Of a stretch of DNA of 64,000 bases, positions 4,761 to 38,382 are shown piece by piece (position 1 is the stretch's first letter; each line of letters begins with the position of its first letter). The notes beneath the pieces are model-generated. The model had not been told where the DNA came from. It did no database searches and saw nothing but the letters and a program-made list of their open reading frames with translations. The stretch is from the NCBI RefSeq assembly GCF_033096445.1, contig NZ_AP028155.1:3663880-3727879 (forward strand). Direction: 5' to 3'. This DNA comes from Butyricimonas faecihominis (GTDB lineage Bacteria; Bacteroidota; Bacteroidia; Bacteroidales; Marinifilaceae). The translations under genes and the position numbers were made by a program.

Positions 4761-4781
4761 ATTCATATTTACCAAAAAAGA

Positions 4782-8364: not shown

Positions 8365-8370
8365 TGTATC

Positions 8371-10308: not shown

Positions 10309-10361
10309 ATGAATTTTAGATTTACGATTTTGATTGTAGATTTTAATCTTTTAAAAATAGA

Positions 10362-11693
10362 ATGATGAAAAATACAATTTTGATATTATTACTGATATTC
10401 GGATTGTTTGCCTGTGAGGACAACGATTCCTATTTTGACGCTTCGATTCCCCAGGAAAATGTTTCGTTCGAGGCCATTCCGGGAGGGGCTATCATGCGTT
10501 ACACCTTACCTGAAAATACAGATATTTTTGCCGTTAGAGCAGAGTATGAAGATTATAAGGGAAAGAAAATGATCAAGATCGCCTCGTATGCTTATGATTC
10601 TCTCGTACTTGACGGGTTTAACGAGGCTCGAAATAACGTGCCGGTACGGGTGTCATTGTTGAATCAGAGTAACGAGGCATCGAAAGCGATGGAGTTTACT
10701 TTCAACACGCAGGATTCCGGTCCGGTGGCTTTCTTTAACAATATAGAAGTGCTGCCTTATTGGGATGGATTCCAGGTGAAATATAAAGTTCCCTGTGCGG
10801 CTACCGGACTTTGTAACGTGTTTTTTATCGGGACAAATCCGATGACAAAGGAATTAGATACCCTTTTACTGGAGACTTTTGCCATTGAGGCCGGGGAGAA
10901 TGTGAAATATTATTCTTTGGCTCAAAAAAGAGACATGAATACGGTTGTCGTGAAGACGGAAGATTTCAGGGGAAATGTGGCCATGCAGAAAATATACGAG
11001 GGAATTGCCTCGTATAACGTGGAAAAATTGGATCCATCGAATTTCGAATGGTTAGACCCGTTCTCTTTGTCCGTGGAGAACGATAACCAAGGATTTATGG
11101 TTGGTTGGAAGTATCTTTTTGATGGCGATGTAAAAGGGTCCCGGAAATTGGCTTTTCAAGAATCTTGGGGTAACACGCTGTCTCCGGCGAATATGTATTC
11201 TTTTGTAACCCTCCCCTATGCGGTGAATAAGCCGGATGCCCCGAAATATTTTATTTTGGATATTAAGGAACCCAAGCAAGTGTCCAGTATTAGAATGTAC
11301 GGGATGTTAAATCTGAATACTATGACAAAACCGTCTGTTTTCGTAACCTGTTATGGAACGATGTTGCCTAATGATGTCACGATATATGCCTCTAATGATA
11401 AAGATGATAACAATTCTTGGGTCAAAGTGGGTAATTTCTATCAGTCGCTGACAGCGGCGGTTCCATGGATACAACGTGCTGGTGATGTTGACAATTCCAC
11501 GAAAATAAAGACAACCAGTGAACTGGAAGCCGTTGAACCATGTTACCTTACGGTTAATTTTTCTGTTGATAATCCTCCCTACAGGTATTTCAAAGTTGAA
11601 TTTAACAGTGTTTTCAAGAAAATACCGAATCAATATTATGAGAATACCACGGAACGGGTGACTTTGCATGAGGTTGAAGTATACGGGAAATAA
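10362..11693 (+). CDS. Surface lipoprotein, DUF4959/DUF5126/DUF5000-like
   Basis: A 443-residue lipoprotein (lipobox LFAC, cysteine at about 18) resembling the three-part DUF4959-DUF5126-DUF5000 proteins that accompany SusC/SusD pairs in Bacteroidota. The N-terminal part looks like Ig-like beta domains (GGAIMRYTLPENTDIF) and the C-terminal part, after LFDGDVKGSRK, like a discoidin-type binding fold. It is probably a surface glycan- or substrate-binding accessory of the SusCD complex. The corresponding paralogue in the second locus is at 30721. Domain names are from memory of the family. Confidence 0.75.
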   Translation: MMKNTILILLLIFGLFACEDNDSYFDASIPQENVSFEAIPGGAIMRYTLPENTDIFAVRAEYEDYKGKKMIKIASYAYDSLVLDGFNEARNNVPVRVSLLNQSNEASKAMEFTFNTQDSGPVAFFNNIEVLPYWDGFQVKYKVPCAATGLCNVFFIGTNPMTKELDTLLLETFAIEAGENVKYYSLAQKRDMNTVVVKTEDFRGNVAMQKIYEGIASYNVEKLDPSNFEWLDPFSLSVENDNQGFMVGWKYLFDGDVKGSRKLAFQESWGNTLSPANMYSFVTLPYAVNKPDAPKYFILDIKEPKQVSSIRMYGMLNLNTMTKPSVFVTCYGTMLPNDVTIYASNDKDDNNSWVKVGNFYQSLTAAVPWIQRAGDVDNSTKIKTTSELEAVEPCYLTVNFSVDNPPYRYFKVEFNSVFKKIPNQYYENTTERVTLHEVEVYGK

Positions 11694-11707
11694 TAAATAG
11701 ATGAATT

Positions 11708-13231
11708 ATGAAGAGAATATATATAATCATTGTTTTGACGGCAATCTTTGCCGGAATCTTTGCCGGGTGTGAAGACCAAGAAGATACGTGGGAGGAGTAT
11801 GCGGGTAATGGTCGGATTCGTTACACGGGAAAATGTACGGATGTTTTGTTGAAATTGGGATGGGAGAGTGTTGTTGTTTCTTGGAAAAATACGTTGGACC
11901 CGAATCGGGAAAATATTTTGATAGAGTGGGTTGGTGGAGAGCAGACCGGAGACTCGCTTTTGACGAAAGATATGGAAAGTTGTACAATTAAAAATTTGGG
12001 TAACGTGACATACACGTTTCGTGTGTATGCCGTGGATAAAGAAGGAAGGCGTTCTTTGGGGGCCGAGGCTTATGGGCGACCGTTTTCCATGGCGCATGAA
12101 GCGTTGAACGGGTTTACCCCGGTTGTGACGAAATGCTTTCCGTTGGGAGAGGATAAACTGGTTCTCTATTTTGACCGCTGGCAAAATACCTTAGCGGCAG
12201 CAAGCCTTCGGTATTATAAGAAATCAAATCCGAACGAGCTTGTTACCTTGGAATTGACGGATACGGACAGTATTCTGAAACAAAGGTATTACGTGGTGGA
12301 TAACATTGATGTAAACAAGGAGGTAGCGGTGGAGCGGAAAGGGCAGTTGCAAGAACTTCCCGGAGTGGATATTGTTTTTAATTCCCTGCCGTTAGATGTA
12401 CATCAGCGGGTGTTTAATAGTGATTTTGTTCGGGAGATTCAAACTCATTATTTCATTGACGAATTGGATGAAAACTTTATTAACACGGTAGAGGTGTTGG
12501 AGTTTGATTATGACTTGTCCACATTGGAAGACTTGTTTTATTTCCCGAACTTGAAAAAAGTGGTGTTGGGTAAGAACCGGTATTTATACGAGGCCTATAA
12601 GGATGCTGTTAAGCAGAGCGTGTTGGCGGATACGGCAGCCAGTCGGTTTGCCTTGGAAGCGCTTCATGAATTGCAAGGAGTGGAAGTGGAGAGATATAAC
12701 AAGCATTATTTCCCGAATCCATTGTCTGTGTTGAAAGAACAAGGACATTCGGAAGTGCCTGCCACCTTGCACTATTTTACGGCTGCGGGAATAACGGTTT
12801 TACCTTCCGATCAGACTGGGTATAATGCTCATCCTGAATTTTTATTGGATAATAATCAGGCGACGATATGGAATCCTCAGCAGATAAATTCTTTCCGGCA
12901 GCATGAATTGCTTATCGATTTGGGGAAGGTGGAGACCGTTTCCGGATTTAAAGTGGCGCAGGATGCGACGAGCCCGATCAGTAGTCCATGGGACACGAAA
13001 CATAATTTCCGTCCGAACCTTCTGAAAGTGTTAGTGTCAAAAGATCAAGCATCTTGGGAAGGGGCTACTTTTGATGAAGATAACGAGATTGGGAATACGG
13101 CGGGGGAGATCACGTTACTTCGTATGAAACAGCCTAAAGAAATCAGGTATGTCAAAATAACCGTGAGCGATCAGGCTTATTATGCGAATTTTGGCATAAT
13201 CTTGGCTGATTTTGTCGCCTTTAGTGAATGA
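11708..13231 (+). CDS. DUF4998-like surface lipoprotein with C-terminal discoidin-like domain
   Basis: A 507-residue lipoprotein (FAGC lipobox near residue 20). The first 110 residues, from DTWEEYAGNGRIRYTGKC onward, resemble DUF4998, an Ig-like domain of SusCD loci. The last 150 residues (LLDNNQATIWNP, LLIDLGKVETVSGFKV, RYVKITVSD) have the pattern of an F5/8 type C carbohydrate-binding fold. Fourteen bases separate it from the preceding lipoprotein gene. The paralogue is at 32074. Likely role: surface capture of the substrate. Confidence 0.75.
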   Translation: MKRIYIIIVLTAIFAGIFAGCEDQEDTWEEYAGNGRIRYTGKCTDVLLKLGWESVVVSWKNTLDPNRENILIEWVGGEQTGDSLLTKDMESCTIKNLGNVTYTFRVYAVDKEGRRSLGAEAYGRPFSMAHEALNGFTPVVTKCFPLGEDKLVLYFDRWQNTLAAASLRYYKKSNPNELVTLELTDTDSILKQRYYVVDNIDVNKEVAVERKGQLQELPGVDIVFNSLPLDVHQRVFNSDFVREIQTHYFIDELDENFINTVEVLEFDYDLSTLEDLFYFPNLKKVVLGKNRYLYEAYKDAVKQSVLADTAASRFALEALHELQGVEVERYNKHYFPNPLSVLKEQGHSEVPATLHYFTAAGITVLPSDQTGYNAHPEFLLDNNQATIWNPQQINSFRQHELLIDLGKVETVSGFKVAQDATSPISSPWDTKHNFRPNLLKVLVSKDQASWEGATFDEDNEIGNTAGEITLLRMKQPKEIRYVKITVSDQAYYANFGIILADFVAFSE

Positions 13232-13247
13232 TGATAAAAGGATAATT

Positions 13248-14339
13248 ATGAAAAGAATCATGTTATTTATAGCTTGCATGGCCCTTTGGGGGCTATGCAA
13301 TGCTCAAAAAGGTTACCACATTACGGGTAATTTAGGGCAATTGCAACAAGATACTTTTTATTTGGTCGTTCCCAATCTGAACGGGACAGTAAATGTGTTG
13401 GGAGTATCGATACTTAAGGAAGGGAATCTTGAATTTAAAGGACAGGTTCCGGAACCCGTGATGGCAACGATCATGACATCCGATCGTCAGGGAATGATCC
13501 CGTTAATGCTGGAGAATACAGATTATTCAATACAGATTGGTGCGGAGTCTATTGAAGTGGAAGGAGGAACGGAACAAGCTGTTTTTAATCAATTCAATGC
13601 GCTGCAAAGAGAGGCCAAAAAGCAACAGCAAAAGTTGCAATCTGACATGAAGACAGCCTACGAGGATGCCAACCAGATGCGGGTTCAGGCTCTTTCCGGG
13701 CAAGCGCAGAAGTTCATGCAGAATATGCAAAAACGGCAAACAGAGATCGTGAAAGAGAATGCGAATACCAGTACCGCCGCGTATATCGTATTGACTTGTG
13801 GGTTGCAGGCTCCTGTTGAACAGTTGCAGGAATTGTATAACTTATTGGGTGAACAAGCCAAGAGTTCTGTCTATGGGAGAATTATTGCCGCCCAATTGTC
13901 GGAACTCGGACGAGTGGCAGTTGATAAAGTGGCTCCGGATTTTACGGTGAATAGTCCTGAAGGGAAGCCGATTTCGTTGCACGGAATTAAAGCCAAGGCG
14001 AAGTTAGTGGATTTCTGGGCATCTTGGTGTGGTCCCTGTCGGGCAGAAAATCCTAACGTGATCCGGTTGTACAAGAAGTATCATGATAAAGGCTTGGAAG
14101 TATTGGGGGTATCTTTGGATGATAACAAATCTAAATGGGTACAGGCGATTATGGAGGATGGGTTGCCTTGGTTGAACGGTTCCGACCTGAAAGGACAGGC
14201 TTCGGAGATTGCCCGGATATATGGTGTACGGAGTATACCTTTTACGTTACTATTGGACGAGAACAATCGGATTGTAGCTAAGAATCTTCGCGGGAAAGAA
14301 TTGGCAAAAAAGATAGAGGAACTACTGAAATCTAAATAA
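13248..14339 (+). CDS. TlpA-like thioredoxin with DUF4369-like N-terminal domain
   Basis: A 363-residue exported thiol-disulfide protein. It has a signal peptide ending at CNA, a DUF4369-like domain of about 100 residues, a helical linker rich in glutamine (REAKKQQQKLQ), and a C-terminal thioredoxin fold with the redox pair in WCGPC (C261, C264). I start at the ATG at 13248 rather than the upstream frame opening at 13212, because the signal peptide begins there. It probably handles disulfides in the periplasm for the secreted proteins of this locus. It is homologous to the protein at 37291, which closes the second locus. Confidence 0.88.
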   Translation: MKRIMLFIACMALWGLCNAQKGYHITGNLGQLQQDTFYLVVPNLNGTVNVLGVSILKEGNLEFKGQVPEPVMATIMTSDRQGMIPLMLENTDYSIQIGAESIEVEGGTEQAVFNQFNALQREAKKQQQKLQSDMKTAYEDANQMRVQALSGQAQKFMQNMQKRQTEIVKENANTSTAAYIVLTCGLQAPVEQLQELYNLLGEQAKSSVYGRIIAAQLSELGRVAVDKVAPDFTVNSPEGKPISLHGIKAKAKLVDFWASWCGPCRAENPNVIRLYKKYHDKGLEVLGVSLDDNKSKWVQAIMEDGLPWLNGSDLKGQASEIARIYGVRSIPFTLLLDENNRIVAKNLRGKELAKKIEELLKSK

Positions 14340-24103: not shown

Positions 24104-25132
24104 ATGAAAACTGAAAAAGATATAGAAGAAATGCTGGATAACGTGAAAATCCCTTCGGATGAAGAGGTTGAGGCCGCGGGGGTGCGATTCGATCGGCGGC
24201 TGCGTCGTGTGAGAATGCGCCGTCGGATCATTTGGAGCGGGAGTTCCGTGGCGGCGGTGCTGTGTTGTGGGCTCGTGTTTGCCTCGTTGTGGGTACGTGA
24301 AAAGGAAGAGGTGCCTGAGGTGACAAAAGTGGTCAGCGTGATCAAGATGGATCACGATTTTGCCGTGCCGACATTGATTCTGGCGGACGGGAATAGTTTG
24401 AATCTGAAAGGGAAAAAGATGGATTCCGTTGTTCAGAAATCGAACATTCAGATTGCGAATAACCATATCATGTATGATACGGCAAGGACTGCTCGTGAAA
24501 TTGCGTACAACACTCTGATCATCCCTGCCGGGTTCACGTATAACGTGACGCTTGCTGATGGGACGGAAGTAACCCTAAATGCCGGGAGTCGTTTGAAATA
24601 CCCGGAAGAGTTTGTCGGGGATTTGCGGGAGGTGGAATTGTCGGGGGAGGCTTATTTTAATGTGACGAAGTCGGGGCAACCGTTCGTGGTAAATATTGAC
24701 GGTTCTAAAATCCGGGTTTACGGGACCCGGTTTAACGTGAAGGGACGTTCTCAAAAGACAGTCGAGACCGTGTTGATCGAGGGGAAGATTGGTTTTAAAT
24801 CTCCCGGTCGTGATGAGATTCAAGTCATTCCCGGAGAACAGGTCGCTTATAACGTGGGGTCCGGTGATATTAAAGTGGAACGTGTGGACGTGCAATATGC
24901 CATGGCGTGGCTGAATAACGTGTTCCGCTATCGGGACAAGCCTTTGGATCTCGTGCTGGAAGATATTTCAACTTGGTACGGGGTCGAGTTTGAAGCCCGG
25001 ACGGAACTGGCCCGGATTGAAATAACCATGAATTTGAGTAAAGAGACTCCGATTGACGAGGTGATTCAATTCCTTGAAGAAATGACGGATTGTAAATTTA
25101 TAAAAGAAAGGGGGCATTACATCGTGAAGTAA
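24104..25132 (+). CDS. FecR-family anti-sigma factor (second uptake locus)
   Basis: A 342-residue inner-membrane protein. It has a short charged cytoplasmic part (about 1-43), one membrane segment (SSVAAVLCCGLVFASLW), a FecR domain (IPAGFTYNVTLADGTEVTL, VELSGEAYFNV, IRVYGTRFNV) and a C-terminal DUF4974/STN-like domain. It should hold the divergently encoded ECF sigma factor until the STN domain of the SusC at 25275 signals substrate. The periplasmic part is similar to the FecR at 3612, but the cytoplasmic parts differ, suggesting different sigma partners. Confidence 0.92.
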   Translation: MKTEKDIEEMLDNVKIPSDEEVEAAGVRFDRRLRRVRMRRRIIWSGSSVAAVLCCGLVFASLWVREKEEVPEVTKVVSVIKMDHDFAVPTLILADGNSLNLKGKKMDSVVQKSNIQIANNHIMYDTARTAREIAYNTLIIPAGFTYNVTLADGTEVTLNAGSRLKYPEEFVGDLREVELSGEAYFNVTKSGQPFVVNIDGSKIRVYGTRFNVKGRSQKTVETVLIEGKIGFKSPGRDEIQVIPGEQVAYNVGSGDIKVERVDVQYAMAWLNNVFRYRDKPLDLVLEDISTWYGVEFEARTELARIEITMNLSKETPIDEVIQFLEEMTDCKFIKERGHYIVK

Positions 25133-25274: not shown

Positions 25275-28200
25275 ATGCAAAAAAATCACATGGGCGGTAT
25301 CTCTATCGCTAAAAAAATTGTGTTGTATATATTCTTGGTATTTACAACACTAGGAGCTATACCTAGGGACACGTACGGGGCGACATCTTGTGTGTTTCAG
25401 GTCATCCAGAAGAAAGTAACCATTTCGATGAAAAATGCCACGCTGGAAACCATTCTTGCCGAAATTAACCGCCAGACGGGTATTGATTACGGTTTCCAAA
25501 GTAACGGGGCGGTAGATAAAAACCGACACTTCACCTTGGAAGTGAAGGATGTCTCCGTGGACGAGGCCTTGAAGACGTTGTTGAAAGACAGTCCATACGA
25601 TTATGTACTCGAAAAAAATCGGGTCGTGATCGTGGTTAAGGAGGCAAAACCGGTACAGTTGGTAGCAGTGACCGGGCGGGTTGTGGATGAAAAAGGGAAT
25701 CCCATTCCCGGAGCTACGGTGCTTATCCAAGGAACAACTCAAGGAGTGGCCACGGATGCCGAGGGACGTTACACGATCAATACCCGGCCGGAGGATGCCT
25801 TGCGGATTTCCTTCATTGGTTACAAGACAGAGGTAGTGCCGCTCAAAGGGAAAACGAAATTAAACGTTCGTTTGAATCCCACGGCCGAGAATATCGAGGA
25901 GGTAACCGTTGTGGCTTTCGGAGAGCAAAAGAAAGAGAGTGTGGTTTCGGCTATTACCACCGTGGATGCGAGAACCTTGAAATCTTCAAGTAGTGACTTG
26001 ACTTCCCAGTTTGCCGGAAAAATTGCCGGTATCGTGGGATGGCAGACGGGAGGTATTCCCGGTGCGTTGACGGAAGAAGAAATGAATACCAAATTCTACA
26101 TTCGTGGTATTACTTCCTTTCAATCCAAAGCCAATATCGATCCCTTAATTTTGATTGATGGGGTGGAATCGTCCAAGCTGGATCTTTCCCGTATGACACC
26201 GGAAGACATCGAGACTTTCAGTGTGATGAAAGATGCATCGGCAACTGCCATGTACGGGGCTCGTGGGGCAAACGGGGTAATCTTGATTACCTCCAAAAAA
26301 GGACAGGAAGGTAGTGTTTACACCTCTGTTCGTTACGAGGCGGTATTGAGTATGCCGACAAGGGAGATCGAGGTGGTAGACCCCATCAATTACATGAAGA
26401 TGTACAATCAGGCGTTGTTGGCTCGTAACCCGGATGCCACCCCGCAATACAGCGTGGAACGCATCGAACGCACGGGTTCTCCTTCATATCCTTCTTGGGT
26501 GTATCCGGCGAATGACTGGTACGACATCATGTTCCACAATTACTCCATTAATCACCGTGCCGGTTTGAATATCCGGGGTGGTTCCCGGTTGGTTCAATAT
26601 TACACGTCCGTGAATTACGTCCGTGATGAGGGGATGTTAAAAACTGATCGTCTGAACCAGTTCAAGTGTAATATCGAGAATAGCACGTTCTCTTTCCGTA
26701 CGAATCTGAATATCGACTTGAGTGCCGGAATTCGTTTGAATATTAACACTTCAGCGAACTTGGATAAATATCGCGGTCCTTATGCTGATGTATCGCAGGC
26801 ATATTACTTGGCTTTTAATGCCTCTCCGGTGGATTTTGCCCCGACTTATCCGGCGGACGAGTCATCCAATTGGCCGCATCTTCGTTTCGGTGCGGTGGAT
26901 CAAAGCACTGTCAATCCTTATTTGATATTGCATCAGGGATATAAGGATCGTCGTCGCTATTCGGCTGTTGCCCGTGCGGAGTATATTCACAATCTTTCTA
27001 CTCTTCTCAAAGGTTTGGAGTTACGGGCTTCGGTTTCCATGAACCAAACCGGGTACTATGCGAATGCTTATAAGACAACCCCTTATATGTATTCTCTGAA
27101 GAATTATGATTTTGAAACTGGAGTACATCAGTTGAATGCTTTGAATAGTAGTGAGGCATCAAGGACATTGGCGAAAGATAATGATGATAAGCATACCAAT
27201 AGTTCTCAATCTACGCAGATGAGTTACGAGGTACGGGGGCTGCATGTGGCAGCTTGGGGAGAACATCAGACCAGTCTGACCGTTGTGTTTAATTTGCAGG
27301 AAACTACTACTTCTCAAACAGCATCTGTGCTAGATGGTATTCCAAACCGGAATATGGGCGTGTCCATGCGCGGAACTTATGGATGGAGGGACAAATATTT
27401 TGCAGAGGCCAGTTTCGGGTATAACGGTTCCGAACGTTTTGCCAAAGATCATCAGTTCGGTTTCTTCCCTGCGTTAGGGGCAGCTTGGATTGCATCCAAA
27501 GAGAAATTTCTTGCCGACCACACGGCTCATTGGCTCTCTTTCTTGAAATTCCGTTTCTCGTGGGGTAAGGTCGGAAATGACGGTGTTATCAAGGACCCGC
27601 GTTTTACCCATTTACCTTTATTGAAAAATGACAGTGCGTTAGATCCCTCCCCAAGTGGGAATAATATATCAAGGCCTTTTGTGGCTTCTTATCCTAATGA
27701 GAAGCTCACGTGGGAAATTGCTGAACAGAGTAATATCGGTATCGAGACCAAATTTTTTGGAGGAATCGTGGAGCTTAATGCCGATATTTATCAGGAAATT
27801 CGCCATAATATCTTGGACTATCGCTATACGATGCCATCAACTACCGGTTTGGAACAACCGCAAATTGGAAACGTGGGCAAGGCTCGCTCTCGGGGTATTG
27901 ACCTCTCGGGTAAGGTGCAACATGCCTTTACCCCGGATCTTTGGATGATCTTGAATGGTACGTTCACGTATAGCAAGGCTACTTACAGGAAGATCGAGGA
28001 AGCAACTAGTAAACCGGCATGGCAGCGGAGAGAGGGACATGAACTGTCACAACAGATCGGTTATATTGCCGAAGGTCTTTTCCGCGATCAGGCGGAGATC
28101 AATAATTCGCCTACCCAAGGAGGTGATATCATGCCGGGAGACATCCGCTACCGTGATATAAACAAGGATGGAGTGATCGATGTGAACGATGCCACGTACA

Positions 28201-28724
28201 TCGGGTTCCCGACAACTCCCCGTGTGATTTACGGGTTTAGCGGATTCTTTAACTTCAAGAATATCGAGTTTAGTTTTGCTTTCCAAGGATCCGGGAAACG
28301 GGCTTTCTTTATGAATCCCCAAAAGATTAGTCCGTTTGAGGAAAACCGGGCTATGCTGAAAGCGATTTATGATGATCACTGGAGTGCCGATAACATGAAG
28401 GAACGTCCTTTCTGGCCGCGTCTTTCCACACAATCGATCATCGTGCATAATCCACAGGAAGAGTGGGGAGGATCGGAACAACGGAGGTCTACCTATTTTA
28501 TGCGGGAGTGTAGTTTCTTGCGTTGTACTTCTATTGAATTGGCTTACAATCTTCCGCGGGAGTTCCTGCAAAGGTTGAGAATGCAAACGGTGAAATTCTA
28601 TGCCCGTGTCAATAATCCCTTCTTGATCACGAACTTCAAGGTATGGGACGTGGAGTTGGGGGACAATGGTTTTAATTATCCGATTCAGCGTACATGGTCG
28701 ATCGGGTTGAACCTAAGTTTCTAA
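25275..28724 (+). CDS. SusC/RagA-type TonB-dependent outer-membrane transporter with STN domain
   Basis: An 1149-residue TonB-dependent transporter with the same plan as the SusC at 4912: signal peptide, STN domain (about 50-125; VTISMKNATLETILAEINRQ), regulatory-like domain (GRVVDEKGNPIPGATVLI), plug (GARGANGVILITSKKGQ) and a beta-barrel ending GLNLSF. Long stretches of the plug and of the C-terminal barrel are nearly identical to the first copy, while the central barrel differs. This suggests the loci import related but not identical substrates. Confidence 0.93.
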   Translation: MQKNHMGGISIAKKIVLYIFLVFTTLGAIPRDTYGATSCVFQVIQKKVTISMKNATLETILAEINRQTGIDYGFQSNGAVDKNRHFTLEVKDVSVDEALKTLLKDSPYDYVLEKNRVVIVVKEAKPVQLVAVTGRVVDEKGNPIPGATVLIQGTTQGVATDAEGRYTINTRPEDALRISFIGYKTEVVPLKGKTKLNVRLNPTAENIEEVTVVAFGEQKKESVVSAITTVDARTLKSSSSDLTSQFAGKIAGIVGWQTGGIPGALTEEEMNTKFYIRGITSFQSKANIDPLILIDGVESSKLDLSRMTPEDIETFSVMKDASATAMYGARGANGVILITSKKGQEGSVYTSVRYEAVLSMPTREIEVVDPINYMKMYNQALLARNPDATPQYSVERIERTGSPSYPSWVYPANDWYDIMFHNYSINHRAGLNIRGGSRLVQYYTSVNYVRDEGMLKTDRLNQFKCNIENSTFSFRTNLNIDLSAGIRLNINTSANLDKYRGPYADVSQAYYLAFNASPVDFAPTYPADESSNWPHLRFGAVDQSTVNPYLILHQGYKDRRRYSAVARAEYIHNLSTLLKGLELRASVSMNQTGYYANAYKTTPYMYSLKNYDFETGVHQLNALNSSEASRTLAKDNDDKHTNSSQSTQMSYEVRGLHVAAWGEHQTSLTVVFNLQETTTSQTASVLDGIPNRNMGVSMRGTYGWRDKYFAEASFGYNGSERFAKDHQFGFFPALGAAWIASKEKFLADHTAHWLSFLKFRFSWGKVGNDGVIKDPRFTHLPLLKNDSALDPSPSGNNISRPFVASYPNEKLTWEIAEQSNIGIETKFFGGIVELNADIYQEIRHNILDYRYTMPSTTGLEQPQIGNVGKARSRGIDLSGKVQHAFTPDLWMILNGTFTYSKATYRKIEEATSKPAWQRREGHELSQQIGYIAEGLFRDQAEINNSPTQGGDIMPGDIRYRDINKDGVIDVNDATYIGFPTTPRVIYGFSGFFNFKNIEFSFAFQGSGKRAFFMNPQKISPFEENRAMLKAIYDDHWSADNMKERPFWPRLSTQSIIVHNPQEEWGGSEQRRSTYFMRECSFLRCTSIELAYNLPREFLQRLRMQTVKFYARVNNPFLITNFKVWDVELGDNGFNYPIQRTWSIGLNLSF

Positions 28725-28743: not shown

Positions 28744-30675
28744 ATGAAAAAATATTTATTATCAATACTTTGTGGCATTCTTCTGCTCCCTGGGTGTAAT
28801 TACCTTGATATGGTGCCGGAGAAAGACATTGAAACGATTGAATCGCTTTTTGAGCAGCGCACGAAAGTAGAGCTTTGGTGGAAAGGGCTTTATGCCGAGT
28901 TGAACAATATATTTGCCGATTTTAGAGTGAATACGGCTTATCTTGGAGCGGATGAATTTGTGACGTGTCAGGCGTTGCATAACTCTACCATGTACAATCT
29001 TGACGGGTTAAAGATTGCAGATGGCCTTCAGATGTCTCAGAATCCTTACGGGTCAATCTGGTACAGGATGTATGTTGTTATCCGAAACTGTAATATTTTC
29101 CTCGAAAATGTGGATCATACGTATAATATGAGTGAGGAAGATCGTAACTGGTGGAAGGCAGATGTGAAAGCGGTGAAAGCGTATGTTTATTTCGAATTGG
29201 TGCGTCGTTACGGGCCTATTTGTTTAATCCCACAGAATATGCCGGTAGATTTGCCGGTGAAAGATTATCAATTACCTCGTCAACACGTGGACTCTTGTTT
29301 CAAGGAAATCATTAATTTGTTGGATGAGTCCATGGAATACGTGCCAAAACATAGTCAAAGAATATCTAATTACGGCCATACGTTCAGCCTCGAAGCGGTG
29401 TATGCACTGAAAGCAAAAGTGTTGCTTTATGCTGCCTCTCCTCTTTTTAACGGGAATGCATTTTATTCCGATTTTAGGAACAAAAACGGGGAATTGCTTT
29501 TTAATTCCACTTACGATCGAAATAAATGGTTATTAGCTGCGGAAGCCGCTGATAAGGCAGCTGAAATGTGTGAAGAAGGCGGACGGGCTTTAATCTCGGG
29601 AGCAACCGGGAAAAAGACCGATTTGTTGAATAAGATGGCTGATATAGAGAATATGTCGTTCTCTCGCTTTAGCAATTCTGAATACCTGTTGGAATGGAAA
29701 TATCCATCTCCATTTTATCAATTTATTTTGCCGCGGTTAGTCGGTGATGATGATAATTTTGACTCTCAGGCGTTAGGCTGTCTTTCTCCTTCCATGAAGA
29801 TGGTGGAAATGTACTACACGGCAAATGGGTTACCTATTGATGCTGATATTACATGGAGTTATAGCAATCGCTATAAATTGGCTTCCGAGAGTAGCCCCGT
29901 GTACGAGGGTGTCATTCCGATGAATATCGATGTGGTGAATCTTCATCTTCGTCGTGAACCTCGGTTCTATGCTTGTATTGCGGGAGATAGGATGTATTGG
30001 CAACGAGGGACGAATACGGTAGATAAGGACTATAATTTTCTTGTAAAGGCACATAAAGGAGAAGAGCCATGGGGGACGCAATATGACTTTATTGTCAGCA
30101 ATTCATGGCAGAATATCAACGGTTACTGGTTAAAGAAACATTTGTTTTCGTGGTTTAATACTTTGGGATACGCTAACAATCTGCAAGGAAATGAAACGGC
30201 AGCTATCATCCGTTTGGCTGAAGTTTACTTGATGCAGGCGGAGGCTTGGAATGAATACTTGGATCAACCGGATAGCAAGGTGTATGATCCGCTGGATAAG
30301 GTTCGTGAACGTGCCGGAATTCTACCCGTGAGAGAGGCTTGGGGAAGTTATTCCAACAACCCGGTAAAAGTAACCACGAAAGTCGGAATGCGGGATATTA
30401 TTCATCAGGAGTATAGCGTTGAGTTCGCTTTCGAGGGACATCGGTACTGGGATCTTCGCCGCTGGTTGACAGCCCATCAGACAATGAATGAAAAACAATA
30501 TGGCTGGAATGTTATCGGGACCACGGATCAGGCCTTTTATAACTATGAAACGGGACCGGTTGTGGTATATAGCAGTAATAAATTTATTGCCCCGCGGGAT
30601 TATCTTGATCCGTTTGATGCAGAAGAGATTCTGATTTCCGGAATGGTACAGAACCCGGGATGGGGAGGTAAATAA
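28744..30675 (+). CDS. SusD/RagB-family substrate-binding lipoprotein
   Basis: A 643-residue lipoprotein (LLPGC lipobox) starting NYLDMVPEKDIE. It carries the family segment KADVKAVKAYVYFELVRRYG and the C-terminal FEGHRYWDLRRW. It pairs with the SusC 19 bases upstream. It aligns throughout with the SusD at 8371, but the middle, which normally forms the ligand site, is clearly more divergent than the ends. Confidence 0.93.
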   Translation: MKKYLLSILCGILLLPGCNYLDMVPEKDIETIESLFEQRTKVELWWKGLYAELNNIFADFRVNTAYLGADEFVTCQALHNSTMYNLDGLKIADGLQMSQNPYGSIWYRMYVVIRNCNIFLENVDHTYNMSEEDRNWWKADVKAVKAYVYFELVRRYGPICLIPQNMPVDLPVKDYQLPRQHVDSCFKEIINLLDESMEYVPKHSQRISNYGHTFSLEAVYALKAKVLLYAASPLFNGNAFYSDFRNKNGELLFNSTYDRNKWLLAAEAADKAAEMCEEGGRALISGATGKKTDLLNKMADIENMSFSRFSNSEYLLEWKYPSPFYQFILPRLVGDDDNFDSQALGCLSPSMKMVEMYYTANGLPIDADITWSYSNRYKLASESSPVYEGVIPMNIDVVNLHLRREPRFYACIAGDRMYWQRGTNTVDKDYNFLVKAHKGEEPWGTQYDFIVSNSWQNINGYWLKKHLFSWFNTLGYANNLQGNETAAIIRLAEVYLMQAEAWNEYLDQPDSKVYDPLDKVRERAGILPVREAWGSYSNNPVKVTTKVGMRDIIHQEYSVEFAFEGHRYWDLRRWLTAHQTMNEKQYGWNVIGTTDQAFYNYETGPVVVYSSNKFIAPRDYLDPFDAEEILISGMVQNPGWGGK

Positions 30676-30720: not shown

Positions 30721-32070
30721 ATGATGAAAAATACCATTTTCTTATTATTATTTGTGTTCGCTTTGTTTGCCTGCGAGGACGATGATTCGGTTTTCGAACC
30801 ATTGACGGAAGGACTGGAGATCAAATTTACTCCGGTTGCGGGCGGGGCGATGATGCATTATCGCCTGCCGAATAATAGCGACATCTTTGCCATGAATATC
30901 CGTTACAAGGACTGGCAAGGATTGGATGTTTTGAAAGCCTGTGGATATAGTGGTGACTCGGTTTTGCTGGATGGTTTTACCAGAAGTCAGGAGGGGATAA
31001 AGGCTCAGATCTCTTTTGTTAATCAAAATAACGAAGAATCGGGAGCAATGGACTATCAATTTTCAACATTGGACAGTGCGCCTTGGTCTTTCTTCGATGA
31101 TTTGACGGTAAGATCCTCCTGGAATGGTTTTCAGGTGATCTATAAGAGTCCTTCGGTGATTACCGGTATGGTTCATGTTTTTTACTTGGGAACAAATCCG
31201 TTGACACAGAAGGAAGATACGATTCTGATGAGCAGTTTCCCGATTACTCAACAGGGAGATACGCTTAATTTTATACAGAAACAGGAAAGATCAAGTAACA
31301 CGGTCATTGTTCGGACGGAAGATTTTCACGGTTTCCGTGTAAGACAGGAAATTTATCCGGACATTGATGCCTTCCGGGCGGAGCAATGGAAGATGTCTGC
31401 AAGTGACTTTAATGATTTCGGCTTGTCGAGGGAGAGTGCTAAGGCTAAGACGGGAGTGGAATATCTTTTTGACGGGGAATTGAAAGGTTTGGAGCGCTTG
31501 ATCGCTTCCGCTTATGAAGACAAAGATTCGCGTCAGGGGACGGAAGTTTATGGAGCTTATCTTGCCGGTCCTTATGCTTATGGAAAGCCGATGATTCTCG
31601 ATTTGAGAGAACAGAAAATTCCGGCATGGATTCGTATTTATTGTCTTTATCCGATACTTGCTCAATATGCGGTTGGTCAGGCTACTTGGGGAAATGTGTG
31701 GATTGGTTCTTACGAAGACAAGGTGCCGTGCAAAATTTCGGTATATGGCAATAGTACCTCCCCGGATCCGGATGACGAAGGATGGGTTTACTTGGGGCAA
31801 TTGGATCAGAATCCCAAACGCGAGGCGGTAACCAAAAGATGGTCGCATCTTACAACAGATCTAATGTCGGCTCCTAAAGACGTGAATGATTTGGAAACGA
31901 AGGACCCGATTTACGTGGATATTCAATTTCCTCCTGTAAACAACAAGTATCGTTATTTGAAAGTGCTGGTACTCGACACGTTTGACACGTCAAAAGAAGA
32001 CGGGATAAATCGTAATTTACAAGAGTATTTTACGTTACAGGAACTGGAAGTTTATGTGAAAAAGGATTAA
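30721..32070 (+). CDS. Surface lipoprotein, DUF4959/DUF5126/DUF5000-like
   Basis: A 449-residue lipoprotein (LFAC lipobox) and paralogue of the protein at 10362. It shares GGAMMHYRLPNNSDIFAM, the central beta domains and the LFDGELKGLERL segment that opens the C-terminal discoidin-like part. It probably binds substrate at the cell surface beside the SusCD complex. Domain assignment is by resemblance. Confidence 0.75.
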   Translation: MMKNTIFLLLFVFALFACEDDDSVFEPLTEGLEIKFTPVAGGAMMHYRLPNNSDIFAMNIRYKDWQGLDVLKACGYSGDSVLLDGFTRSQEGIKAQISFVNQNNEESGAMDYQFSTLDSAPWSFFDDLTVRSSWNGFQVIYKSPSVITGMVHVFYLGTNPLTQKEDTILMSSFPITQQGDTLNFIQKQERSSNTVIVRTEDFHGFRVRQEIYPDIDAFRAEQWKMSASDFNDFGLSRESAKAKTGVEYLFDGELKGLERLIASAYEDKDSRQGTEVYGAYLAGPYAYGKPMILDLREQKIPAWIRIYCLYPILAQYAVGQATWGNVWIGSYEDKVPCKISVYGNSTSPDPDDEGWVYLGQLDQNPKREAVTKRWSHLTTDLMSAPKDVNDLETKDPIYVDIQFPPVNNKYRYLKVLVLDTFDTSKEDGINRNLQEYFTLQELEVYVKKD

Positions 32071-32073: not shown

Positions 32074-33648
32074 ATGAGAAAGAGAAAATACATCATAAAT
32101 CTATTTGCGGCTGCCGCGTTGTTGGTGGGATGTGGTGAGAGCCTGGAAGACACGTATAGTGATTATGCCGGAGACGGAAAGATCCGTTACGTGGCAAAAT
32201 GTACAGAGGTTCATGCCACTCCGGGCTGGGAACGTTTGCTTGTGGAATGGATAAACGGGACGGATGCAACCGTTGATAAAATCAAGGTGATATGGTCATG
32301 TGAAGACCTGAAGGATTCGGTATTACTTCCCAGTACGGCCGAGTCCTACGAGCTGAAAAATTTGACGAACGGGACTTACCGTTTTGACGTGAGTGCCATA
32401 GATTTTTCGGGTAACGAGTCTTTGGTGGAAACCACCTATGGCCGTCCTTACACGAGAGAGCACGAGATCATGCTGGCCTTCACGAGAGGTGTTGTGAAAC
32501 CGTACTTCCTGAAAAACAAATTGATTTTCTTTTCTGATCAATGGAATGAGAATATTGATGAGATTAAATTGCAATACAAGGATACACGGGGTGATATTCA
32601 ATATTATACGTTTGACAAGGAAACGAGTTACAATGCTTTTATCACGATCGACGATGTGAGCATGAACCCGACGGATACGATTTATGTGCTTCGGAAAGGA
32701 AGGGTGGAAGGCTGTCCGGATCAGATTGAGTTTGATCCGCTGGCATTGAGCCACACGAAGATCTTCAGTTCGGGATTTGTAAATGCCATCGAACGTCGTT
32801 ATGGTTATTCAAACAAGACGAAAGAACAGGAAGTGGAATTTGAGAAATTTGTAGAGGGGGTGACAGAGTTGGAGTTTGATTACGATATGGAAACTTTTGA
32901 GGATGTGTTGTATTGTCCGAATTTGAAAAAGCTGATATTTGCGAAAAATCGGTATTTGGATTCGAAGTATACTTATTCGACAGAAAATGATTATCCCAAA
33001 TTACGGAGTGATATAGGAAGGAGTCTTCAAGTTTTGGATAAGGCCAGCGAACCGGATGTGTTGGGATTGAAAATCGAATGGTATGGTGGTTGGAATATTC
33101 CTTATTTCGAATCCGAAGAACCCCCATATATGGAATACATGGGATACTCCCCGCTTCCCGAGATGGAATTGATTGCACCGGAAGCCTTGAAAACGTATGA
33201 CAACGGGAGTAAGGTTAATTGTTCTCCTTCGGATCTTTATGCCGACTTGGATGCTTTGTTGGATGATAATTATCAAACAACATGGACCACCACGTCTAAT
33301 ACGGTTCCTCGTAAGTACGAGATGGCTATGGAATTGCTGGAGGAAACAGAGATTAGCGGGATAAAGATCGCGCAACCCTTGTATCACCCGATGATGGATC
33401 GACGGATGCAATACATCATGCCTTCTCAGATTTCCATTCAAGTGTCCACGGACGGAGGTCATTGGCAGAATGTCACTTATTTTGAAACCAATGAACTGGG
33501 ACGCGGATCGGGAGAAGTTACTTTGTTGAAATTCCCGGAAGGTTCCCGGCGGGTACGCTACATCAAGTTTACCTTACAGGATGGAACGGACCCGGGTGGA
33601 AACTGTGCGATTGCTTTGGGGGATATTCTTCTCTTTAAGTTGAAGTAG
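32074..33648 (+). CDS. DUF4998-like surface lipoprotein with discoidin-like C-terminus
   Basis: A 524-residue lipoprotein (LVGC lipobox) starting only 3 bases after the previous stop. The N-terminal DUF4998-like domain begins DTYSDYAGDGKIRYVAKC. The C-terminal part (LLDDNYQTTWTTT, AMELLEETEISGIKIAQ, RYIKFTLQD) looks like an F5/8 type C fold. It is the paralogue of the protein at 11708. Confidence 0.75.
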   Translation: MRKRKYIINLFAAAALLVGCGESLEDTYSDYAGDGKIRYVAKCTEVHATPGWERLLVEWINGTDATVDKIKVIWSCEDLKDSVLLPSTAESYELKNLTNGTYRFDVSAIDFSGNESLVETTYGRPYTREHEIMLAFTRGVVKPYFLKNKLIFFSDQWNENIDEIKLQYKDTRGDIQYYTFDKETSYNAFITIDDVSMNPTDTIYVLRKGRVEGCPDQIEFDPLALSHTKIFSSGFVNAIERRYGYSNKTKEQEVEFEKFVEGVTELEFDYDMETFEDVLYCPNLKKLIFAKNRYLDSKYTYSTENDYPKLRSDIGRSLQVLDKASEPDVLGLKIEWYGGWNIPYFESEEPPYMEYMGYSPLPEMELIAPEALKTYDNGSKVNCSPSDLYADLDALLDDNYQTTWTTTSNTVPRKYEMAMELLEETEISGIKIAQPLYHPMMDRRMQYIMPSQISIQVSTDGGHWQNVTYFETNELGRGSGEVTLLKFPEGSRRVRYIKFTLQDGTDPGGNCAIALGDILLFKLK

Positions 33649-33902: not shown

Positions 33903-36900
33903 ATGCTAAAAATCAATCATTTTACCAAACTCTTTTTTAGCGGGATACTCTTGTTGTGTTTTTCCGGGGCTTTCGCTCAAGAGCAGGAGGATCGTCTCCT
34001 GCAACTGATGAAACGGGAGCTGGCGTATAGCATGGAGCAACTGAAAAAACAGGAAAGTGTCCCCTATTACATGAACTTGCGGGCGATGGACGACCGCACG
34101 ATAACAGTCGTGAGTTCATTCGGGGCCGTGACTACCTCTAACGAGAATCGTATGAGGACATTGGTGCCACAAGTTCGGTTGGGCAGTCCAGATTTGGATA
34201 ATTTCAAGTATAATATGCAGGGAGGGTTTGCCGGACCTAACGCGCAAGGAGCGCGAGGGGTCGTTTTGCCTTTGGATGATGATGCCACGGATGCGATCCG
34301 GGAAGCGATTTGGCGGGAAACGTTGAAACGTTACGAGTTCGCCCGTAATATGTACGATCAGGCGAAAACCCGGGCCACGGTGAGCGTGGCAGACGAGGAT
34401 AAAGCCCCGTGTTTCTCTGATGCTCCCATGGAACGTTATTACGAGGCTCCCTTGGCTGCCGGGAGACAGAAAATGGATATTAAGCGGGCTTGGGAACAGC
34501 GCCTGAACGAGGTTTCCGCCGTGTTCAAAACTTGCCCCGAGTTAAGCGAGGGATCAGCCAGTTTTAGTTTTCAGGTATTGCGCACCTATTTCGTGAATAG
34601 CGAGGGGAGCGTGGTGGTACAAAACCGGATTGCTACCCGGGTGATGTTGATGGCCTCTTTGAAAGCGGCTGACGGGATGGAACTGCCCTTGAACAGAGAC
34701 TATTTTGCTTACACGCCCGATGACTTACCGGATAATGATCGGATGATCGCGGATGCACGGGACATGATCAAACGCTTGCTGGCGTTGCGCGATGCCCCGG
34801 TGGCTGATCCTTACACGGGACCCGCCATCCTGTCCGGTCCTGCCAGTGGGGTGTTCTTTCACGAGATCTTTGGCCATCGGTTGGAAGGCCATCGCTTGAA
34901 ATCGGGCGGTCAAACCTTCAAGAAGATGGTGGGAGAGCAAGTGTTGCCTGTTGAATTTCAAGTGTATTGCGCGCCTTTGTTGAAAAGCTATGCCGATACC
35001 GATTTGTACGGTCATTACGTGTATGATGACGAGGGAGTGAAAGCTCGCCGGGTGGATAACGTGGTGAATGGCGTGTTGAAAGAGTTCTTGATGAGCCGGG
35101 TTCCGCTGGATGGTTTCCCGTCAAGTAATGGCCACGGTCGTACTTCCGGCGGGGGAGACCCCGTTTCCCGGCAATCCAACTTGATCATAGAGACCACTCA
35201 TCCCTACACGGAGGATGAACTTCGGGCCATGTTGGTGGCAGAGGCTCAAAAGCAGGGGAAGGAGTACGGTTACTATTTCCGGACCGTGACAAGCGGTTTC
35301 ACGTACACGGGTGAGGGCGGAAGTCTGAACTCCTTCAACGTGACTCCCTTGGAAGTGTACCGGGTGTTCGTGGACGGTCGCCCGGATCAGTTGGTGCGGG
35401 GGGTGGACCTGATCGGAACCCCGTTATCCATGTTCTCCAATATCGCGGCTGCCGGAGACAAGCCCAGCGTTTTCACGGGTGTTTGCGGCGCGGAGTCGGG
35501 ATGGGTGCCCGTGACGGCATCCTCTCCCACGATATTCGTGAGTAAGATCGAAACGCAACGTCGGGCGCAGGCTCGTGATATTGCCCCGATCCTGCCTTCC
35601 CCGAAACCGGAAGTGGTGAAAGAGAATAATCCGGATGATGTTATTTTTGCCGCGATGCGCTCCGAACAGGAACGTAACAAGGCAGCTTTAGTTCTTCCTA
35701 ACGGGCCGAAACCTTATTATATTTCGTACACGATAGCCCGCTATCGTCATTTTCAAATGGCGGCCTCGTTGGGAGGATTAATGCTTTCGAACGTGTCCCC
35801 GTGGCAAATGAGTGGCGGCACGCAGGTGTTGCTTGGTGATTACCAGAGAAACAGTGACGTGCAGTATCAGGAACAGATCGCTCCCGCGCAATTGCCTTCG
35901 GAGGTGGACTATGACGTGATTCGCCGCGGGTTGTGGGAGTCGTCCGATATGATGTACAAGTACGCTTTGGGTATGATGGCGCAGAAAATGAATTACCTGC
36001 AACAGAACCCACTTCCCTCGGAAGAGGCGGCGTTGGCAGATATGCAACCGCTCCCGGCGGTTACCCGTGTACAAGAGCGTCCGGAGGCCTACAAGATTGA
36101 TCAGGGTGTTTTGGAACGGCTCGTGACCGAGGTGTCTGCCGTGTTCAACGAATACAAGGAGATTTATAATTCCAGCGTGGCGATCAACGGGATGGAGGTG
36201 GATATGTACCGCCTGACGACGGAAGGGGTACAATTGAAAGAGCCGGGTGGATACGTGAGTGTCACGGTTTCTGCGGAAGTCCGAGGTGACGACGGTTCGA
36301 ACTTGGGGGATTCGTTCTCTCTTTCCCTGTTGAATCCGGCAGAGATTCCTTCGGTGGAGGAGTTGAAAGAGCGGGTGAAAGCGTTTGCCGAGGGATTGAT
36401 GCAATTGAAAGCGGCTCCTCCCGTGGCGGAATATTACAATGGCCCGATCCTGTTCGAGGGTGGTGCCGTGGCAACCATCTTGGCCAATAACTTGCTTTAT
36501 CGCGGCGGGTTGATTGCGGCCCGTTCTCTCATGCCTATGGGGCGGGGATTGGCGGATCAGTTCGGTCAGAAGATCATGGACGAGCGCCTGACGGTGAAGA
36601 ACTACACGAACAAGAAGGAATATAACGGAACCCCGCTATACGGTTATTACGAGGTGGACGGGGACGGTGTCACGCCGGAAGCGGAAATGGTGCTGGTGGA
36701 AAAGGGCGTGTTCAAGAAAATGCTGAACGGACGGATCCCCGCGTTGAAGGCTCCGGAGACCACGGGTAGTTCCCGTTTCATCATGTCACCGCAAAGCCCG
36801 ACGTTAGTGACGGGAACGGGAACGATCCACGTGCAGGCGGAAAAGGGCGTTGCTCACGAGAAGATGAAAAAGTTGTTGATCAAGGCGGCGAAAGCGGCCG

Positions 36901-37205
36901 GGCAATCTTGTGCTTACATCGTGAGAGGTATTTCCGGGTCGGCACTTGTCGTGTACCGGGTGGACTTGAAGGACGGGAAAGAGACCCGTGTCCGGACCAC
37001 GGGTTTCCGTATGCCGGAGCTGACAAAATTGTTGAGGCTGGTTGCCATCTCCTCGAAGGAAGAGGTAATGAATTACTTGCCGAACGCTTACCCGGCCTCG
37101 ATGATTTACCCCGCGGGGATGATCGTGGACGGCATGGTGATCGAGAAGGCTAACCCGAAGACGGAGAAGGAACCGGCGTTGAAACTCCCAAGACAGCGGG
37201 ATTAG
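33903..37205 (+). CDS. Exported tandem TldD-TldE-like (PmbA family) metallopeptidase
   Basis: A 1100-residue protein with a signal peptide (ends AFAQ, about residue 25) followed by two TldD/PmbA-family halves. The first half has the TldD zinc site: HEIFGH (H320, E321, H325) and the cysteine of TGVCGAESGW (C528) as probable third ligand. The second half, from about residue 560, shares the fold (GPILFEGGAVATILANNLL aligns with the region before the first-half motif) but has lost the metal ligands, as in TldE/PmbA. Ordinary TldD and TldE are separate cytoplasmic proteins of about 450-480 residues forming a heterodimer that degrades unfolded peptides or matures microcins. Here a single exported chain would reproduce that pair. 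It sits in the susCD locus before a thioredoxin. Confidence 0.85.
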   Translation: MLKINHFTKLFFSGILLLCFSGAFAQEQEDRLLQLMKRELAYSMEQLKKQESVPYYMNLRAMDDRTITVVSSFGAVTTSNENRMRTLVPQVRLGSPDLDNFKYNMQGGFAGPNAQGARGVVLPLDDDATDAIREAIWRETLKRYEFARNMYDQAKTRATVSVADEDKAPCFSDAPMERYYEAPLAAGRQKMDIKRAWEQRLNEVSAVFKTCPELSEGSASFSFQVLRTYFVNSEGSVVVQNRIATRVMLMASLKAADGMELPLNRDYFAYTPDDLPDNDRMIADARDMIKRLLALRDAPVADPYTGPAILSGPASGVFFHEIFGHRLEGHRLKSGGQTFKKMVGEQVLPVEFQVYCAPLLKSYADTDLYGHYVYDDEGVKARRVDNVVNGVLKEFLMSRVPLDGFPSSNGHGRTSGGGDPVSRQSNLIIETTHPYTEDELRAMLVAEAQKQGKEYGYYFRTVTSGFTYTGEGGSLNSFNVTPLEVYRVFVDGRPDQLVRGVDLIGTPLSMFSNIAAAGDKPSVFTGVCGAESGWVPVTASSPTIFVSKIETQRRAQARDIAPILPSPKPEVVKENNPDDVIFAAMRSEQERNKAALVLPNGPKPYYISYTIARYRHFQMAASLGGLMLSNVSPWQMSGGTQVLLGDYQRNSDVQYQEQIAPAQLPSEVDYDVIRRGLWESSDMMYKYALGMMAQKMNYLQQNPLPSEEAALADMQPLPAVTRVQERPEAYKIDQGVLERLVTEVSAVFNEYKEIYNSSVAINGMEVDMYRLTTEGVQLKEPGGYVSVTVSAEVRGDDGSNLGDSFSLSLLNPAEIPSVEELKERVKAFAEGLMQLKAAPPVAEYYNGPILFEGGAVATILANNLLYRGGLIAARSLMPMGRGLADQFGQKIMDERLTVKNYTNKKEYNGTPLYGYYEVDGDGVTPEAEMVLVEKGVFKKMLNGRIPALKAPETTGSSRFIMSPQSPTLVTGTGTIHVQAEKGVAHEKMKKLLIKAAKAAGQSCAYIVRGISGSALVVYRVDLKDGKETRVRTTGFRMPELTKLLRLVAISSKEEVMNYLPNAYPASMIYPAGMIVDGMVIEKANPKTEKEPALKLPRQRD

Positions 37206-37290: not shown

Positions 37291-38382
37291 ATGAAAAGGA
37301 TTTTATTTACAGTATGTATGTTATTAGGTTGTGTCCTGTTCATGATGGCACAGAATAAGGGCTACAAAATTGAGGGACGTTTGGCCAACACGGTCAATGG
37401 TAAGTTGCTGTTGGTTGTCAAAATGGATAAAGGAACGATTGATATTAGCGAAGCTGATGTTACGAATGGGGTTTTCGAATTTACAGGTCGGATGCCTGAG
37501 ATGACATTGGTTTATCTGATGCCGGTAAAAAAGAATGCCGTGCTGGCTTCTTTCATGCTGGAAAACGCTAACTACACGATCACGATGGGCGCAAACGAAT
37601 TGATTGTGGAGAGCGACGGGGAAGCGCAGAAAGTATGGAAAGAATTTTATGATTTAGATAAGTATCTGAAACAAAGCCAACAACAGTTGGATATGCAAGC
37701 CCGGGCAAATCCCCCGCAATTACAGAGATTGCAACAGGAGTTTAAAAAAATAGTGGCGAAAGTCGAGGCTGACGAGTTGGCCTTAATAAAGAAGCATAAC
37801 GACTCTCCCGTGTCTGCATTTGTGATCGCTTCGAAGTTACCGCAGAGTCTGGATGAGGTGAAATTAGCCGAACGTTATGATGCTCTGAGTGAAAAGGCGA
37901 AAGCAACTTCCTACGGCAAACAGATTGCAGCTGATCTGGAAATGATGAAAAAAGTCGCTGTGGGGGAAATCGCTCCCAACTTCAGCGCCCCGTTGGCGGA
38001 TGGCGGTGTACTTTCACTGCACGAGACGAAAGCTAAAGTGAAAGTCGTTGATTTTTGGGCTTCTTGGTGTGGTCCCTGCCGGGCAGAGAACGTGAACCTG
38101 ATAAAGATCTATAAGCGTTATCGCCCGAAAGGGTTGGAGATCATCAGTGTTTCCATTGATGATAACAGGCAGGCTTGGTTGTCGGCAATCGGTCAGGATG
38201 GCAGCGATTGGAAAAACGTGTCCGACTTGAAAGGCGGGCAATCTGAGATTGCTACCGCATATAGCGTGAAGGGAATTCCCTGCACCTTTATCCTCGATGG
38301 TGAAAACCGTATTGTGGCTAAAAATCTCCGGGGAAAAGACTTGGAGAAGAAGATCGACGAGATGCTGAAAAAGAAGAAATAG
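37291..38382 (+). CDS. TlpA-like thioredoxin with DUF4369-like N-terminal domain
   Basis: A 363-residue exported thioredoxin-fold protein with WCGPC (C260, C263) and an N-terminal DUF4369-like domain. I start at the ATG at 37291, where the signal peptide MKRILFTVCMLLG begins; the frame itself opens at 37222. It is the paralogue of the protein at 13248 and closes the second locus in front of a strong terminator. Likely role: disulfide reduction for secreted partners or peptide substrates. Confidence 0.88.
   Translation: MKRILFTVCMLLGCVLFMMAQNKGYKIEGRLANTVNGKLLLVVKMDKGTIDISEADVTNGVFEFTGRMPEMTLVYLMPVKKNAVLASFMLENANYTITMGANELIVESDGEAQKVWKEFYDLDKYLKQSQQQLDMQARANPPQLQRLQQEFKKIVAKVEADELALIKKHNDSPVSAFVIASKLPQSLDEVKLAERYDALSEKAKATSYGKQIAADLEMMKKVAVGEIAPNFSAPLADGGVLSLHETKAKVKVVDFWASWCGPCRAENVNLIKIYKRYRPKGLEIISVSIDDNRQAWLSAIGQDGSDWKNVSDLKGGQSEIATAYSVKGIPCTFILDGENRIVAKNLRGKDLEKKIDEMLKKKK

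Follow-up and report, generated by a model that had tools for sequence, protein, structure and literature searches.

TldD and TldE are known as a compartmentalized peptidase that acts inside cells. According to PMC5810440, the two Escherichia coli proteins, both of which are needed, form a hollow shell with metal on TldD only, into which unfolded N-termini are threaded for shortening if they span about 15 residues or more; the same source gives Cys454 of TldD as the third metal ligand and describes salt bridges of Lys456 with Glu270 and Asp272. Here, we describe a single-chain, export-type relative of this pair, encoded in a 64,000-nucleotide stretch of the genome of Butyricimonas faecihominis (Bacteroidota; assembly GCF_033096445.1, contig NZ_AP028155.1, positions 3,663,880 to 3,727,879 of the forward strand), hereafter the window. 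The gene occupies positions 33903-37205 of the window on the forward strand, as a single uninterrupted frame of 1100 codons for amino acids, and, as a preliminary description of this DNA had noted, it lies in a susCD locus, with SusC and SusD genes nearby on the same strand. Its product is probably a periplasmic metallopeptidase of the TldD/E type, with unfolded peptides as what it trims, and the gene was probably recruited into some copies of an uptake cassette; both activity and substrate are inferred. The superfamily as such is already known, but its exported branch is apparently undescribed: among the literature matches listed, there was no description of exported or fused TldD/E, although one may exist.

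One exported-type chain with two TldD/E lobes

The product of the gene is one intact, exported-type TldD-TldE chain. Its N-terminus, inspected by eye, combines a positive charge, a hydrophobic stretch and a Sec-type signal (MLKINHFTKLFFSGILLLCFSGAFA/Q); of the cysteines of the chain (positions 19, 170, 211, 356, 528 and 1003), C19 appears by eye to lie outside any lipobox, and its column has no cysteine in any other member of the 16-row alignment of fused chains. The signal peptide claimed in the preliminary description is thus borne out by this pattern and by a crude test, with the conserved pattern carrying the claim. Pfam recognizes PF19289 (PmbA_TldD_3rd) twice and PF19290 once. The N-terminal domain PF01523 gave no Pfam match in the fused protein or in the whole genome of its host, compared with matches in 10 of the 14 control genomes; the N-terminal region without this match nevertheless aligns structurally with TldD residues 8-481. 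The NCBIfam models of TldD and PmbA match the fused protein far under their cut-offs (37.2 bits against a cut-off of 513 for NF008006, the E. coli-type TldD equivalog). In the sequence search of the Protein Data Bank (PDB), residues 268-549 match E. coli TldD with E 9.8e-12, GVCG falling over GVCG. Profile against profile, the two halves align with each other over 538 columns with a probability of 100. Because close copies exist in other genomes (98% identity in G001 and 79-80% in G003, G004 and G005), the fused chain is more than a product of chance.

The AlphaFold2 model of the whole 1100-residue chain, built with 16 fused homologues, has a mean predicted local distance difference test score (pLDDT) of 84.9 and a predicted template modeling score (pTM) of 0.83, from which the two lobes have a predicted mutual position. 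The TldD half (model residues 30-555) aligns with E. coli TldD (5nj5_C) over 444 residues, with Z 32.3, root-mean-square deviation (rmsd) 3.5 and about 20% identity over the fold. Modelled alone with 40 sequences, the second half reaches pLDDT 91.4 and pTM 0.89 and superposes on the solved chains of TldD and TldE equally well (Z 24.2 and 23.6, a tie). Each of the 16 Foldseek matches at E 0.001 or lower is a TldD/E chain, and the structures that rank under these chains (capping protein, MHC-like and others, Z up to 5.5) were taken as background. The second half is, as modelled, a TldD/E lobe, but the fold by itself does not decide for TldE over TldD; we call it TldE because it follows TldD and has no HExxxH. 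The preliminary description had proposed two TldD/PmbA halves in one chain, the active one first, with H320, E321, H325 and C528 in the first half and the same fold without metal ligands in the second. The duplicated PF19289 and the fold alignments support this layout; the residues stand at the positions given, with HEIFGH starting at 320 and C528 in the list of cysteines; and the second half has neither HExxH nor HExxxH and superposes on TldE, as had been expected of it.

Spread and conservation of the exported branch

At E 1e-20, the fused chain has matches in 50 of 393 genomes sampled from the order and in 40 of 395 sampled from the phylum. No more than two candidates were scored in each genome of the order sample, which leaves copies undercounted, and some matches span one half only. 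A match runs through both halves in 9 of the 50 order genomes (G000, G032, G358, G274, G211, G226, G330, G322 and G304). Most matches are split tandem genes, the majority with export-type N-termini; in each of the 61 distinct split pairs, TldD precedes TldE, with a median gap of 36 nucleotides (range -388 to 570). The strict version of our crude export test was passed by 19/21 fused chains, 68/75 TldD and 48/58 TldE, compared with 65/172 control open reading frames (ORFs) and 0/15 canonical TldD; the first version had let through 96/172 control ORFs, and the test is still weak after tightening. Homologues, thus, do not lack export signals, most of them carrying export-type N-termini by this weak measure. 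The preliminary description attributed the move out of the cytoplasm to the fusion. The export-type N-terminus stands; the fusion as its cause does not, since export is usual in this branch whether the halves are fused or split.

The metal triad and the catalytic glutamate (H320, E321, H325, C528) are present in 91 of 92 TldD halves, the 91 comprising 20 fused and 71 split chains, and R326, E328 and A530 are likewise identical in 91/91 aligned halves. Split TldD rows were admitted by the pattern H[EA]xxxH, so that both histidines were partly selected, which leaves E321 and C528 as the counts independent of this choice; 7 rows shorter than 450 amino acids were removed ahead of these counts. Among the E rows, 0/85 have HExxH or HExxxH, five of them having been sorted there for lacking H[EA]xxxH although they score as TldD (four are second genes of pairs and one is L027). 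No cysteine other than C528 is kept throughout (C170 and C356 each in 21/91 and C211 in 13/91 TldD rows, C1003 in 12/85 E rows), which places C528 outside any conserved disulfide.

The host genome has fused genes at two loci and, in addition, two split pairs. In G001, a third fused copy (L050, 6543-9825) is broken into two frames amid numerous short ones, with a TlpA-like gene behind it. Loci L027 (1-2154) and L078 (1-2157) encode a diverged, exported-looking TldD-like protein of 718 amino acids with 26% identity and HNIVGH in place of the motif, which may have lost catalysis. An apparent 1122-amino-acid fusion in Pseudomonadales (L013) was rejected, as the two genes proved to be separate there and an alternative frame is open. 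None of 135 stretches of viral contigs that fit a pattern was a relative, and 6 plasmid records weakly match part of the chain.

We also considered whether exported and canonical TldD/E are mutually exclusive. Among 59 close relatives, 13 have the exported form (match at E 1e-40 or better) and 15 the canonical one, with no overlap where 3.3 is expected (P 0.013). In the order sample, however, 50 and 60 genomes, respectively, overlap in 10, against 7.6 expected (P of 10 or more, 0.21), and exclusion was therefore rejected as a lineage effect. The canonical, PF01523-type TldD of the close relatives has a twin-arginine-like N-terminus (RR) with a cysteine (SRREFIRTGSVSLAGMAILPSFLSFGC) in 11 of the 15 genes L028-L042. 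Such loci are L028-L030, L032-L039 and L080 (5519-8411), the adjoining TldE in L080 having no signal, and TatC is present in 16/16 genomes checked. Judging from these N-termini, the canonical TldD of close relatives may be exported too, with TldE carried along.

History of the fusion

In the tree of TldD halves (79 rows, 17 of them fused), the fused state requires at least 5 changes, gains or losses, also when well supported branches only are considered. A topology that gathers every fused row in one clade is rejected by the approximately unbiased (AU) test (p 1e-78, quick LG+G4 tree). Two of the fused rows are long branches in the tree of TldD halves. The tree of E halves (65 rows, 16 fused) again requires 5 changes, a match between the two trees that fits obligate partners. 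The clade of the window protein holds 11 fused rows in the TldD-half tree and 10 in the E-half tree, with SH-aLRT support of 99 and 98, respectively. It seems, therefore, that the two halves fused more than once. The split TldD genes examined end in PILPAP... followed by a stop, after which TldE begins with its own signal; in the fused chain, PILPSP runs straight into the start of mature TldE, so that the fusion removed a second signal and did not create export. The fused gene would thus derive from a tandem exported tldD-tldE pair in which the tldD stop and the tldE signal peptide were lost. Such a fusion would fix the stoichiometry at 1:1 and make one export event sufficient.

The susCD neighborhood

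The gene order at the fused locus, FecR-SusC-SusD-DUF4959-DUF4998-TldDE-TlpA (Table 1; the N-terminal extension of SusC is presumably an STN domain), recurs from SusC onward with a fused gene at six more loci (L045, L048, L049, L054, L056 and L065), whereas L076 is a cassette with a split TldD/E pair behind TlpA.

Table 1. Positions in the window of the fused gene, its parts and the surrounding cassettes.
Feature	Position	Strand	Basis
Fused exported TldD-TldE, 1100 aa	33903..37205	+	open reading frame, Pfam, structure model
Sec-type signal peptide, residues 1-25	33903..33977	+	AFA/Q site read by eye, crude tests; no lipobox
TldD half, residues 26-572	33978..35618	+	VIA-align to 5nj5_C, PF19289
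HEIFGH, residues 320-325	34860..34877	+	sequence motif, alignment of TldD halves
C528, aligned with E. coli TldD Cys454	35484..35486	+	PDB sequence match, alignment
TldE-like half without metal motif, residues 573-1100	35619..37202	+	model, fold alignment, E-row alignment
ANNLLY, residues 861-866 of the TldE half, aligned with HEIFGH of the TldD half	36483..36500	+	profile alignment, column counts
FecR-like anti-sigma factor	24104..25132	+	
SusC with N-terminal extension	25275..28724	+	
SusD	28744..30675	+	Pfam
DUF4959 protein, lipoprotein-like N-terminus (by eye)	30721..32070	+	Pfam
DUF4998 + F5/8 type C protein, lipoprotein-like N-terminus (by eye)	32074..33648	+	Pfam
TlpA-like protein (DUF4369 + AhpC/TSA, WCGPC)	37291..38382	+	first ATG 37291; frame listed from GTG 37222
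Paralogous FecR-SusC-SusD-DUF4959-DUF4998-TlpA cassette without TldD/E	3453..14339	+	

Across the survey, SusC and SusD lie on the same strand within 4 genes of 13/33 exported TldD/E loci, compared with 8/59 control genes, and a thioredoxin-fold gene lies within 2 genes of 13/33 loci, compared with 6/59 controls. The one-sided Fisher P values of 0.006 and 0.001, respectively, are too small because orthologous loci are counted repeatedly; the 59 control genes come from 20 spaced stretches of the host genome. The susCD neighbors anticipated for the homologues are, accordingly, real at these 13 loci, but they do not amount to a general link, and the susCD setting is in part incidental. When the DUF4998 protein was searched in five chosen genomes, 25 places were found, 6 of them near TldD/E; in 11 of the other 19, a thioredoxin-fold gene lies directly behind DUF4998, and two of the 19 (L172 and L173) reach the contig end soon after. 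In the host genome, 2/7 cassettes have TldD/E, and the remaining 5/5 have a thioredoxin-fold gene next to DUF4998. Thus, TldD/E is an optional insert in the cassette, and TlpA is a cassette component regardless of the peptidase. The preliminary description had set the enzyme beside a TlpA thioredoxin; this neighbor is not specific to the peptidase, as the same SusC-SusD-DUF4959-DUF4998-TlpA order exists without TldD/E, including in the window itself. The idea that TlpA is a dedicated partner keeping C528 reduced was likewise rejected as a leading one, given that TlpA-type genes are present where TldD/E is not.

The window SusC matches RagA with E 1.4e-39, but its better matches are other SusC homologs, so that its sequence cannot tell peptide transport from glycan transport. 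No match to the Bacteroidetes-type promoter pattern was found in the gap before the fused gene, the window as a whole giving 6 matches where 2.9 are expected, and a Rfam search of positions 24000-41000 at gathering scores yielded nothing. This 254-nucleotide gap holds a dispersed repeat with a 26-base core (33825-33850) that, when at most 2 mismatches are allowed, occurs at 9 genomic places, compared with 0 for the control; short inverted arms are visible by eye, and the repeat finder (seed 9) reported none. Behind the TldD/E-less cassette of the window, two exported-looking proteins of 231 amino acids (15678-16373 and 16622-17317) share identical first 70 residues, and a similar pair, of 217 and 223 amino acids, stands behind the cassette of L158. 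Genes for retropepsin-like aspartyl proteases occur downstream of such cassettes (18085-19299 of the window and 5031-6434 of L170). Downstream of the fused gene, a small phage-like module (41588-44504) comprises, by eye, an N-acetylmuramoyl-amidase-like ORF together with related ORFs, each about 200 amino acids long; a similar module (L165, 933-3301) lies beside a cassette in G005.

Proposed function and alternative readings

In the scenario that we favor, the chain would be exported by Sec and fold into two TldD/E lobes that close into a hollow pseudo-heterodimer of the E. coli kind, the closed capsule itself being presumed. Metal would be bound by the first lobe only, through H320, H325 and C528, with E321 activating water. 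Unfolded peptide N-termini would be threaded in and trimmed with little sequence preference, while folded proteins would be kept out. Because the triad and the inactive partner are conserved, such an E. coli-like mechanism, operating in the periplasm, is the best guess. The Butyricimonas genome repeats a SusCD-lipoprotein-TlpA uptake cassette, and the fused gene appears to have been recruited into part of these copies. There, the enzyme would, most likely, trim the peptides that the neighboring SusCD imports, as the gene order suggests. Imported, host-derived or modified peptides, put forward in the preliminary description, are candidate substrates.

Several observations weigh against this reading. 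The wider family includes proteins called N-deacetylases, which makes peptide hydrolysis uncertain. One TldD-like protein (L027), left out by the H[EA]xxxH pattern, reads HNIVGH and so is without the catalytic glutamate. The position of E. coli Lys456 is Ala in 91/91 TldD rows, and that of Asp272 (here, 330) is His in 55/91 and Gln in 28/91, so that the clamp tether differs from that of E. coli. Furthermore, 20 of the 33 surveyed loci are without SusC and SusD within 4 genes, and at 19 of the 25 DUF4998 places, the stretch read contains no TldD/E; the tie of the enzyme to the transporter is therefore an optional one.

The uniform replacement of Lys456 would also suit an exported TldD/E-family amidohydrolase that is not a peptidase, such as a deacetylase of amino sugars or of modified peptides imported through the SusCD cassette. 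F5/8 type C and SusD proteins, both of which are in the cassette, often bind glycans, and with an F5/8-domain protein present, glycopeptides or glycans are possible substrates. Superfamily proteins encoded in lincosamide clusters, LmbIH and LmbQ (PMC4351081), point in the same direction. We consider such an amidohydrolase unlikely, as the chain retains the metal triad along with a two-lobe architecture, and as no glycan-acting enzyme family was detected among 27 proteins scanned, many of which matched nothing. The enzyme could, alternatively, be a general clean-up peptidase of the periplasm, disposing of signal-peptide remnants and of misfolded or unfolded exported chains, with its place in a susCD operon merely providing expression. 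The many loci without SusC and SusD and the many cassettes without TldD/E would be expected in this case, and one split pair of the host genome (L047) adjoins ABC-2 transporter genes; yet 5 of 6 genomes of the genus, the host included, preserve the gene order with the fused form (G002 gave split pairs only), and a different genus likewise has copies within or close to such cassettes (fused in L075, split in L076), so that we regard this role as rather unlikely. It is highly improbable that the second half has decayed, leaving a chain that functions as a monomer or as a TldD homodimer: a Sulfolobus TldD homodimer reported to be active, cited in PMC5810440, offers a precedent, but fused and split forms alike preserve the TldE half as an entire fold in which positions are conserved.

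A more speculative extension of the favored peptidase scenario, which we put forward only tentatively, is a large extracytoplasmic TldD/E system of Bacteroidota in which a self-contained periplasmic capsule would shave residues off the N-terminus of imported peptides until halted by a modification or a fold, thereby digesting or disarming modified antimicrobial peptides, either of the host or resembling ribosomally synthesized and post-translationally modified peptides (RiPPs). Repeated fusion might then have been selected because the halves have to meet after export.

If a widespread exported branch of TldD/E indeed exists, it would point to an overlooked step in peptide handling by gut Bacteroidota outside the cytoplasm. 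The single-chain versions, which by parsimony arose more than once, would be a ready covalent heterodimer for studies of the mechanism, and the recurring SusCD cassettes, some holding the enzyme and others lacking it, provide a natural comparison for the substrate search.

Comparison with known systems

The window protein resembles the E. coli TldD/TldE (PmbA) pair (MEROPS M103) in both folds, in the confinement of HExxxH and the remote cysteine to TldD, and in the pairing of a catalytic with a non-catalytic member. It differs in being fused and of export type, whereas the E. coli enzyme consists of two chains and, according to PMC5810440, acts before the export of its product. With the exported split TldD-TldE pairs of Bacteroidota, it shares FFHEIFGHRxEG, N409/H411/R413, R423-N426 and G526-x-C528-G-A-E-S-G; those pairs, however, are encoded by two genes, usually with two signal peptides and often with no SusCD close by. 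RagAB and other SusCD uptake systems have neighbors of a similar type, the tie being the RagA match (E 1.4e-39); peptide import by the window locus is putative. The PmbA_TldD proteins LmbIH and LmbQ belong to the same superfamily according to PMC4351081 but serve in antibiotic biosynthesis, and they are likened to the window protein by superfamily and not by sequence.

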